From contig CATLFB010000010.1 in the NCBI GenBank assembly GCA_949927415.1, positions 1-32,927 on the forward strand: DNA of 32,927 nucleotides, given 5' to 3'. The notes beneath the pieces were generated by a model that made no database searches, was not told the origin of the DNA, and worked only from the letters and a program-made list of their open reading frames with translations. This DNA is from an uncultured Candidatus Melainabacteria bacterium. GTDB lineage: Bacteria; Cyanobacteriota; Vampirovibrionia; Gastranaerophilales; Gastranaerophilaceae. The position numbers and the translations under genes are program-made. Within the stretch, counting starts at the first letter, position 1; each line of letters starts with the position of its first letter. Shown piece by piece: positions 7,451 through 32,927 of the stretch.

Positions 7451-7489
7451 AATTAAGTACATAGAGAATTTTAATACAGGAGCATTAGT

Positions 7490-8264
7490 ATGAAAAAGCA
7501 GACTATTACTGGATTTGCGGGGGGGGGGGGCACCCGAAAATAACGCTCCTTCAAGGGTTTTAGGTGCATTCACTCTTGCAGAAACCCTTATTACGCTAGG
7601 CATCATCGGAATCGTTGCCGCGATGACTTTGCCTGCTGTGATAGACAAATCACAAAAATATATCTTAAAACAGCAATTTAAGAAGTCTTATTCTGTTTTG
7701 TCGCAAGCCTTGTTGAAGGCTGAGGCTGATTTGGGTTATAGCCCGCAATGTCATTACGGAGCCGGAAAGAGCGTATCTTCAACTGACGGGTATGCTGGCG
7801 TCAACACCATTGTGGAATGCGCAGTATTGCATGATGCTATGATGAAAAATCTTAGTGTAATCCAAAAATGTGACAACCATTCTTTTACGAAGAATTGTAT
7901 TCCGAAGTACGTAGGTTTTGAAAAAGTTCTTATGAATAACGACCAAAACCTGAGTGAAGATGATGCTAAAGAAGCAATTAAGAAGTTTAGCGGATGGAGT
8001 ACGAATAATATTTTGAATAACTCGCCTGCGTATGTTCTTAAAGACGGTACAATTATAATTGCTTATTATTCGGCTCCTTTTCCATACAATTTTGCGGTTG
8101 ACATAAATGGCAAAAAAGGTCCGAATAAATGGGGATATGATTTGTTTCCGTTTATTACGATAGCAAATTCAAAAACGAATTTGATACTTATGGGATACGG
8201 TGCTTACCCATTCGAAAAAGGCGGGATTAATGTTGTCGATATGCTAAAACAAATGCATAAATAA
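7490..8264 (+). CDS. Type IV pilin-like protein, reading frame interrupted at a 12-G run
   Basis: A good promoter, ribosome-binding site (AGGAG) and ATG at 7490 start the peptide MKKQTITGFAGGGG, but with 12 Gs (7519-7530) the frame runs into TAA at 7541. With one G fewer it continues as APENNAPSRVLGAFTLAETL and gives a 257-residue prepilin. The cleavage site is GA/FTLAE, with Glu at +5, followed by a hydrophobic helix (LITLGIIGIVAAMTLPAV). The C-terminal domain has cysteine pairs and the motif DINGKKGPNKWGYDLFPF, close to the one in the intact pilin-like gene at 32021. The 3' frame by itself can only start at a TTG (7515) touching the G run, with no own ribosome-binding site. Possible states: phase-variable OFF allele, frame restored by slippage, or a sequencing error. 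The family call for the body is strong; the adhesive or structural role is inference. Confidence 0.8.
7519..7530 (+). repeat. Poly-G tract, 12 G, in prepilin leader
   Basis: Twelve consecutive Gs interrupt the prepilin leader 29 nt after the A of the ATG. In-frame lengths would be 11 or 14, so the observed run is one G over. Similar runs occur at 30461 and 32791. Confidence 0.95.
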
Positions 8265-30215: not shown

Positions 30216-30320
30216 ATTTGTGAGTTTATAAAGTTATGTAACAAAATAAAGCCTGTCTGAAATATGAGAGCCGGGATAAACTTTATATATTCAAGAAAGT
30301 TTAAAAAAGAGGAGCCGGAT

Positions 30321-31863
30321 ATGGTTGATATTAACGGAGATTTCAGTTTAAAATTAAGAGCACTTCAGGCACAAAAAGGTCAAAAATCGCAAAATGGTAT
30401 TCGTCTGGCAAATATCGACCCGCGTATGAGCATGAACGGCAGTATTTTCGCACCTTTTGCGGGGGGGGGGGCAACCGGTTAATCCGTCCTCTCAGGCAAA
30501 TAATGCCAACAATTCAGAGGGCACACGAAATGTATCCAAAGGTCAGGAAACTGCCAAAAATGCCAAAGAACAGGCATCAAAGGGAAGTTCAAGCGTAAAA
30601 AGTTTTATGAGTACTGCAGGCGGTTATCTTCAAGACGCGCTTTCTGCCGAAAAGCAGGGTGTAAGTATGAAGAAGACCATGGAAAAGCAGTCTGCGCTTC
30701 TTAATAAAGATTTTCAAAATTACCAGAAAGCAATGCAGCAGCAAACAAAAGCTCAGGCTGAAACTGATGCTAAAATTGCTGAAAATGACGCTCAGACCGC
30801 CTCGATTCAGCAAAGACTCGAATCTGCTATTCAGCAGAGGAATTCGCTTGGTGCAAATGCCGGATTTATGGGGGATGGCACAAGCAATATTAATGGTTTG
30901 GCAGCCGAATTAGACGGATTGGAAACTTCAAACACGACGCTTCAAACAGCCAACCTGACTGCGACTAAAAGTTCGCAAACTGCATATAAAACAATGACAA
31001 AGTCTTCAAAAAATCTTCAAAAGACTTCGACAAATATGCACAAAGTTACGACAAATACTTTGAAAGTAAACGCCCGCGCGCAATCTGCAACTCAATCCGG
31101 AATAAATTCCGCAACTAATTTGACAATGACCGGAGCGATTACAACCACAACAGGGTCCGGCTTAACTGCAACCGGGACATTGATGACTTCAAGCATGAAT
31201 CCTGCAACTGTTGCAGCCGGTGTTAAATTAACGATTGCCGGAATTTCGACGACGACGGCAGGCGGCGTTATGACAGCAGTAGGTACAAAGGGCCAGAACA
31301 GCGGACAGCAGGCAATGGCAGGATTAACGACTGCTGCGGCGTCCATGGGTAATGCCGCGAATGCATCTAAAGCGGCCGGAAAAACTGCAAAAAACACAAC
31401 TGTCCAAACAAATACCGTAAACAGGCAAAATCAGGCTATGTATCAACAAACGCTTGAAAAACTTCGTAATTCAGAAGGCACTCTTCAATTTGAAAGGACG
31501 ATACAACAGCAGGCACAGCAGACTATTACAAATCTCGGACAGAATCAAAAGCCGCCGGTTGCGGGTGCAAATAGCAGCAAGGCAAGTTTGGCTGATGGCG
31601 CAGAGTTTCAGAATACCAACGGTGGTGCAAGGATGTCAAACAACAACAATGATGCTAACACAAACCGTTTATGTATGGCAACTTCTCAATCTGTTATCAA
31701 TTCTTACAAAAACGAAATGGGCAGTTATGGAAGAGTATCTTCGCAGGAGGATGACACGCCTCCAAGACAGCCGCGCTTGGGTTACGGCAATTCCGCAACA
31801 TCAATAACAAACAATGACGAAGAGCAAAAAAGAAGACTTAATCCTTTACAGATGAGAAAATAA
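30321..31863 (+). CDS. Coiled-coil, Thr/Ala/Gly-rich protein, reading frame interrupted at an 11-G run
   Basis: GAGGAG precedes the ATG at 30321 by about 6 nt, and the first 50 codons read normally to APFAGGG. With 11 Gs (30461-30471) the frame then ends in TAA at 30480; with 10 Gs it continues as QPVNPSSQ to 31861, giving 513 residues. The body has long polar coiled-coil segments (MKKTMEKQSALLNKDFQNYQ and neighbours, roughly 120-200) and a hydrophobic small-residue region (TMTGAITTTTGSGLTATGTL and following, roughly 265-320). The tail is low-complexity and rich in Asn, Gln and Ser. No signal peptide is seen. The look is of a secreted, pore- or surface-associated protein, but I recognise no family. 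The 3' frame has only a TTG (30457) touching the G run as its own start. Confidence 0.7.
30461..30471 (+). repeat. Poly-G tract, 11 G, in the coiled-coil gene
   Basis: Eleven consecutive Gs follow TTTTGC. In-frame lengths are 10 or 13, so the run is one G over, the same offset as at the other two tracts. Confidence 0.95.
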
Positions 31864-31957: not shown

Positions 31958-31986
31958 TTGCGCTTATGTTTAAAATATTGTACAAT
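31958..31986 (+). promoter_or_regulatory. Promoter of the intact pilin-like gene
   Basis: TTGCGC (31958-31963), a 17-nt spacer and TACAAT (31981-31986) lie before an AGGAG (32008-32012). This makes the in-frame TTG at 31958 part of the promoter and not a start codon. Confidence 0.6.
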
Positions 31987-32020
31987 AGGGAATAAACATA
32001 TAAAAGCAGGAGAGTCGGCG

Positions 32021-32710
32021 TTGTCAAAGTTTTCGGTTGGTCATAGTTTGAAAAGTGAATTTTTCCGGGGGATATCTTTGCCCGAATTCATTTTGACCAT
32101 GGGAATCATAGGTGTTGTGGCTTCTCTTACTTACACCGGCCTTCAGCAGCGGGCAGAGCAGCAGAAAAGCATAGCAGCGATAAAGAAAATATATTCGGTG
32201 CTTTCGCAGGTGACTTTGTTTGTTGTAAAAGACCATGATTCAGCTGTCAACTGGGATTTGGAAGGCTATTCGCATGAGGCGTCCGAAAAAGCTTTCAATT
32301 ATTACAAACCATATTTCAGAACCGTAAGAATATGCGCAAACGACCCGGGCTGCTGGCGCTATCCGTCATGGTTTTTGAGCGGGCGGCCGTATTTGAAGGA
32401 AACTGAATTTTATAATTATATGTTCACGCTTGCAGATGGCATGAATGTAATTATCAACGTATATCCTCCTGATATTGTCGTCCGTGATTTCGGGGTAAAT
32501 GTAGAGCGTCCGACGGTTGTATTTCTGGCTGACATAAATGGCGACAACCCTCCAAATACCATGGGCAAAGATATTTTCGCGTTTGTCCTGAAAGAAGATA
32601 CAATCGTTCCGAGCGGAATGGACAATTCTTACACTTGCAATGTCAAAAGCACCGGATTAACCTGCACTTCACGACTTATCAATGACAATTATGAGTTTAA
32701 GTATTATTAA
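32021..32710 (+). CDS. Type IV pilin-like protein (intact, no G run)
   Basis: I chose the TTG at 32021, with AGGAG 8 nt upstream; an earlier in-frame TTG (31958) overlaps the -35 box. The 229-residue product has a 17-residue leader ending in RG, then ISLPEFILTMGIIGVVASLT. Gly is at -1 and Glu at +5 of a class III (prepilin peptidase) site, followed by the hydrophobic assembly helix. The globular part contains cysteines (RICANDPGCW, then TCNVKSTGLTC near the end, a possible disulfide loop) and the motif DINGDNPPNTMGKDIFAF, shared with the pilin at 7490. It lies 51 nt before the start of a third, G-run-containing pilin gene and may be co-regulated with it. Phe, typical at +1, is replaced by Ile. 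Confidence 0.82.
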   Translation: MSKFSVGHSLKSEFFRGISLPEFILTMGIIGVVASLTYTGLQQRAEQQKSIAAIKKIYSVLSQVTLFVVKDHDSAVNWDLEGYSHEASEKAFNYYKPYFRTVRICANDPGCWRYPSWFLSGRPYLKETEFYNYMFTLADGMNVIINVYPPDIVVRDFGVNVERPTVVFLADINGDNPPNTMGKDIFAFVLKEDTIVPSGMDNSYTCNVKSTGLTCTSRLINDNYEFKYY

Positions 32711-32761: not shown

Positions 32762-32927
32762 ATGAAAAATCAAGCTATTATTGAATTTCAGGGGGGGGGG
32801 GGCATCTGAAAACCTTATCCCTCAAGGTATTAAGAGTGAATTTATAAGCAATCTTTCCAAGCAATCAGCTTTTTTTAAAATTTTCGAAAGATTTTTTAAT
32901 TCAAATTGCGCGGCGTTTACTCACGCC
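32762..32927 (+). CDS. Prepilin-like gene start, reading frame interrupted at a 12-G run (3' end outside window)
   Basis: From the ATG at 32762 the frame reads MKNQAIIEFQGGGG and, with 12 Gs (32791-32802), hits TGA at 32807. With 11 Gs it stays open to the window edge as GGGASENLIPQ, then a polar stretch ending in NSNCAAFTHA, which is just where a class III site (A/FTHAE-type) would begin. The leader MKNQAIIEFQGGGASEN is homologous to MKKQTITGFAGGGAPEN at 7490. GAGGAG and an extended -10 lie upstream. The pilin assignment depends on sequence beyond the window and on frame restoration. Confidence 0.65.
32791..32802 (+). repeat. Poly-G tract, 12 G, in prepilin-like leader
   Basis: Twelve consecutive Gs; in-frame lengths are 11 or 14, so this is again one G over. 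Confidence 0.95.

Follow-up and report, generated by a model that had tools for sequence, protein, structure and literature searches.

A gene for a coiled-coil protein of no known family occupies positions 30321–31863 on the forward strand of the window, the 32,927-nucleotide stretch analysed here, which is contig 10 of the 2.18 Mb genome (G000; 99.9% complete) of an uncultured Gastranaerophilales species. Its Shine–Dalgarno (SD) site, AGAGGAG (30308–30314), precedes an ATG at 30321 that opens a frame of 53 codons (30321–30482), closed by a TAA (30480–30482) just past a tract of 11 G (30461–30471) lying directly after TTTGC. The remaining 463 codons and stop follow in a downstream frame (30472–31863), which 10 G would join to the first; as the first-pass annotation had stated, the frame fails by one G, and translation after removal of one G yields a protein of 513 residues containing FAGGGQPVN. 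In the frame actually read the TAA falls 2.7 codons past the run, with the other wrong frame open for 41 codons. A putative anti-SD element, ATCCGTCCTCT (30482–30492), shows complementarity to the SD region of the same gene (AGAGGA-gc-CGGAT, 30308–30320), and the predicted RNA fold of the leader pairs all 11 of its positions with this region (duplex -15.4 kcal/mol); other sites in the gene are as stable, the total fold has a z of 0.36, and for this gene taken alone the predicted pairing is weak and suggestive only. Comparison of the coiled-coil protein with Pfam gave no match above the cut-off, the best hits falling below it. An adjoining pilin-like gene without a run (31958–32710, forward strand; LPEFILTMGIIG) forms a pair with the coiled-coil gene that is kept in G001, G007 and G008.

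Two pilin genes on the forward strand of the window carry runs as well. In pilin 1, an SD (AGGAGC, 7478–7483) is followed by a short ATG frame (7490–7543) that stops at TAA (7541–7543), a tract of 12 G (7519–7530) where 11 would be in frame, and CGCTCCT (7544–7550), complementary to the SD; translation of the downstream frame (7531–8264) shows the prepilin motif GAFTLAETLITLGIIG, and the match to Pfam PF07963 (N_methyl; E 0.066) lies below the cut-off. In pilin 3, the short ATG frame (32762–32809) ends at TGA and contains 12 G (32791–32802), where again 11 would be in frame, and the body frame (AAFTHA) runs off the contig end. These are the three runs of at least eight G in the window, each one G too long, and octamer matches within the window number 14 against 0.13 expected by shuffling. 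The sharing between coiled-coil gene and pilins that the first-pass annotation proposed extends to the run, the offset and the 3' flank, whose resemblance to pilin flanks is equalled by 0.05% of background 22-mers; it does not extend to position, the tract lying 140 nt (47 codons) past the ATG against about 10 codons in the pilins, or to the 5' flank, which shows no likeness beyond TTTGC.

A genome-wide search of G000 identified 66 runs of at least eight G, nearly all of whose loci were retrieved, refuting the prospect that the genome holds no other such genes. The SD and the ATG served to call gene starts, one assembly being used per species, and a locus was considered assignable where a start with an SD was combined with a long downstream frame, as in 43 cases in G000. 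The prepilin pattern was found in 35 of the 43, the remainder including the coiled-coil gene, and in most run genes [GA]F[TS][LM]xE is followed by a hydrophobic helix, which marks them by pattern as type IV pilin-like. The run usually starts 28–30 nt after the ATG (median 29 nt), which, judging from the motif, would place it inside the leader that prepilin peptidase would remove. A smaller class of genes features C runs, encoding PPP in place of GGG. Downstream frames are mostly open for 200–480 codons, and the products comprise pilins, the coiled-coil protein, acyltransferases and glycan-locus genes (the last two judged by eye), classes that match those typical of phase variation. The suggestion of a common switch is supported: dozens of genes share the run, the off-by-one state and the near stop, whether the tract is of G or C and although their proteins are unrelated. 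Genomes from other families of the order contain almost no runs of at least 10 G, and in run-poor genomes, wherever a pilin start could be called, the leader is short and free of runs.

Several individual arrangements have also been observed. Three runs lie within 6 kb in glycan-locus-like genes (L082, L083 and L084; G000:C2 177–184 kb), encoding two long proteins with similar C-termini and one hexapeptide acetyltransferase, and the longest run of the genome, an apparently intergenic G18 (L074; G000:C1 388511), is assigned to no gene. In some loci of G012, CALVAX and G014 (e.g. L039, L168, L250, L179), pilin leaders of 100–240 residues carry in-frame translated repeats (RHSELxSES...DSGSGAGMT, ASSQAPRND) in the stretch that separates the run from the prepilin motif, which gives the cleaved leader the look of a landing site for repeats. 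Contig ends frequently fall no more than about 130 bases from a G run (in G000, C5:1, C7:1, C16:99, C18:99 and the window end at 32927; numerous ends in G006 and G016 do the same), and repetition of leaders among paralogues is the probable cause.

The offset of the runs is close to uniform within a genome. Among the 43 assignable loci of G000, 37 are at +1, three are in frame (7% ON) and three are at -1, with +1 prevailing in G and C tracts, and it is kept whatever length this requires (9, 10 or 11 bases in G000; 12 and 14 in G012). When run lengths were shuffled among loci, this constancy gave permutation p = 5e-5 for G000 and 2.5e-4 for G012, values that overstate independence since loci within a genome are related. 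A tendency of runs merely to settle at about 12 bases was rejected as an explanation, length following the frame needed, although part of this pattern can stem from A-to-G changes beside the run. Across all genomes, 126 of 185 loci are at +1, 33 at -1 (21 of them from G019) and 26 (14%) in frame; same-genus relatives, G022 and CALVBD are mostly at +1, and G019, from another genus, is at -1 in 21 of 25. Nearly every G019 run, G and C tracts alike, is exactly 10 long, one short of in frame. A subfamily inside the window's own genus (L092, L105, L146, L234) is at -1 and has its stop in that frame, since post-run DNA of similar sequence joins the body in another frame. Between species and between paralogues, related loci can differ in state (0 versus +1); the offset is mostly conserved, but some relatives are in frame or offset the opposite way. 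At L157 in G001 the run is broken by a T (G10-T-GG), possibly a locked state.

Codon-level selection for a stop is confined to the frame actually read. In most genomes that frame meets a stop a few codons past the run and the other wrong frame does not. Over 159 loci, 135 (85%) have such a stop within four codons, against 80 expected (50%) when synonymous codons are redrawn, with a maximum of 99 in 2000 draws; for the other wrong frame the observed 15% compares with 14% in redrawn sequences. The direction of the offset goes with the frame having the nearer stop (185 loci; Fisher p 1.4e-13, and 6e-4 without G019). Ribosomes have therefore long read these genes out of frame. Between run and prepilin motif, a start codon in frame with the body is lacking in 80 of 128 close cases and possible in 48; in the former a change of frame would therefore be needed, and restart at a downstream start codon is unlikely as a general mechanism.

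Complementarity to the SD likewise recurs beyond the individual gene. In 49% of loci the 40 nt downstream of the run contain a complement of at least 6 nt to the SD, compared with 4–11% for control windows. Of 169 loci whose SD is GGAG, 92 have a CTCC core able to pair with that SD, just after the stop and about 14–16 nt from the run; the stop lies 5' of this core in 72 of 77. Bases neighbouring the core covary with the SD (p 0.0004 and 0.005, both inflated by relatedness and best-core choice), predicted SD pairing is higher with the true tail than with shuffled tails, and among six windows compared, the tail gives the most stable predicted duplex with the 5' region in 62% of loci. Within the window's genus the complementarity is strong; G019, G022 and CASGAK show it weakly.

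Clear homologues of the coiled-coil gene have been identified only in a few congeners (G001, G007 and G008; 35–41% identity), where they are intact, in frame and without run or motif, and align from the same start (MVDISGD); a search for related loci among the genome contigs with the coiled-coil protein gave no match. As the homologues read R[ML]SxxGSIF[AS]G in a conserved stretch, the FAG of the coiled-coil protein is partly native to its own family. Given the run-free congeners, run and 3' flank were gained in the window lineage, loss in three other lineages being the less likely alternative. A G012 acyltransferase gene (L224; G012:C3:163400–166400) has a G12 inside it, flanked by the direct repeat TAAAACAGCT, and the 20 nt downstream of this run nearly match those in the pilin leaders of G012; the module thus appears to move between unrelated genes. 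An invertible cassette, with C-tract genes as flipped G-tract genes, was rejected, TCCGCTAA following the run in the same orientation in both. The leader pattern also occurs on a viral contig (L290), which proved to be an unrelated phage with a chance match, and a looser viral scan for the pattern returned generic hits only.

Taken together, these features probably identify the run as a tract for slipped-strand phase variation. The genome would have about 60 such tracts, switching surface genes (mostly type IV pilin-like genes, and here a coiled-coil gene paired with a pilin gene) and OFF by exactly one base as the default. A ribosome starting at the SD and ATG would read the run out of frame and stop a few codons on, giving the OFF state, and loss of one G would restore the full protein (ON), with tract length presumed to vary between cells. 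The stopped ribosome would leave the anti-SD stretch free to close the SD in a hairpin, whereas an in-frame ribosome would read through this stretch and keep the SD open, so that the hairpin possibly tightens the OFF state. Long tracts lie near coding starts far above chance, tract length sets the frame, and the genes belong to the surface and envelope, as in contingency loci; G/C runs in an AT-rich genome are the usual choice for replication slippage. Loss of mismatch repair was rejected as a cause, genes for MutS1 and MutL being present; hypermutability is therefore not given, which counts against phase variation. The mixed ON and OFF states (about 1:2) usually expected of contingency loci, though not part of their strict definition, were not observed (7% ON in G000, 14% over all loci). 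Random phase variation predicts about one-third ON and both OFF directions (PMC4965091 gives 1:2); with 7% ON in G000 and nearly all loci OFF one way, phase variation needs the extra assumption of selection against ON combined with slippage bias. If ON were costly and slippage biased, lengths might come to rest at the OFF length immediately preceding ON. Phase variation by slippage fits the gene classes, the choice of G/C and the Bifidobacterium breve precedent; the uniform OFF direction is not explained by it alone.

That uniformity is explained by programmed recoding, the main rival, which is considered rather unlikely: the out-of-frame tract would be fixed, ribosomal frameshifting or RNA polymerase slippage would yield a set full-length fraction, and the near stop would end a default short product, as at known recoding sites. 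In agreement with this, the offset hardly varies within a genome and is often shared by related loci from different species, stops are selected only in the frame read, mismatch-repair genes are present and 80 close cases lack an intervening start. No tRNA-Gly(CCC) was identified among the tRNAs examined (five tRNA hits fell outside that set), so that GGG may be read by UCC wobble; the Gly and Pro tRNAs examined (with the same five hits outside the set) have ordinary 7-nt anticodon loops, and no four-base suppressor was found among them. Against recoding, 26 of the 185 loci are already in frame and offsets run in both directions, acyltransferase genes carry the run too, as does a coiled-coil gene with homologues that require no shift, and the runs are only G/C, whereas known transcriptional slippage usually involves A/T (PMC3711429). 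The gene classes, the in-frame minority and the run-free homologues are left unexplained by recoding, which does account for the uniformity. The fullest form of recoding, in which dozens of surface genes would be purposely one base out, with genome-wide programmed slippage on G/C runs and a frame-sensing SD/anti-SD latch, is doubtful.

A sequencing or assembly artefact, in which runs truly in frame would gain one base in assemblies (or drop one in G019), is very improbable: homopolymers are error-prone, and for the B. breve G tract the length in RefSeq was not the majority length that was measured (PMC9187656), but the same offset occurs in MAGs apparently from different pipelines (contig-name styles NODE, idba and k127), and its direction matches the frame of the selected stop, both per genome and in a subfamily (HP loci) within one genome. 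The first-pass annotation had offered a common short N-terminal signal, FxGGGxPxN, as an alternative to a switch, and the peptides are alike in the window, with GGG[AS]xxN common in the set. This reading has next to no likelihood and is largely refuted by the run-free homologues, which lack the motif, and by frame differences, the same DNA being read as APENKLL, HPRISSW or, in an acyltransferase, QPVKQLL; the motif is at codon 47 in the coiled-coil gene rather than 10, and C-tract genes have PPP instead. What is conserved, to judge from these comparisons, is the DNA and the reading-frame anatomy, and not the peptide. That the genes are decaying pseudogenes with runs as frameshifts is scarcely credible and largely refuted: for all that most runs are out of frame, the downstream frames are mostly open, and constraint acts on the offset and, at the codon level, on the near stop.

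The general class to which phase variation of this kind belongs is already known from Neisseria, Campylobacter and Bifidobacterium; we know of no earlier description of the uniform off-by-one default, the frame-specific stop or the anti-SD. Neisseria phasomes feature mixed repeat types and states, and to our knowledge no uniform offset. They share with the present loci large sets of repeat-switched surface genes (PMC5084427, PMC5953494). Campylobacter jejuni NCTC11168 has 29 poly-G/C contingency loci and, as here, many short, frame-dependent G/C tracts in an AT-rich genome, many of them in surface genes, with majority-ON and majority-OFF genes at an expected 1:2 ON:OFF, in contrast to the approximately 60 runs here that are nearly all OFF one way (PMC4965091). 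In B. breve UCC2003, tracts of about 11–12 G inside sortase-pilus pilin genes (bbr_0113, bbr_1889) split start from body, the ON state arises by replication slippage and the ON length is enriched in the mouse gut; the cited sections concern two loci for sortase pili in a Gram-positive species, rather than dozens of type IV pilin-like genes, and describe no selected near stop or SD/anti-SD pairing (PMC9187656). Programmed frameshifting and transcriptional slippage (prfB, dnaX, IS elements) share a default frame that stops soon after the slippery site, but affect few genes per genome, at A/T runs or defined slippery sites, and not surface gene families (PMC3711429, PMC1088944).

Among the papers searched, none joins phase variation with Gastranaerophilales, a mostly uncultured gut lineage. 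If phase variation is the correct reading, a single genome would hold tens of pilin genes, most of them OFF by one base, and a population could display many adhesion types. The direction-specific stops, together with the proposed SD/anti-SD latch, would constitute a sequence signature of the frame read over evolutionary time, one that could allow default states to be read from genomes elsewhere.
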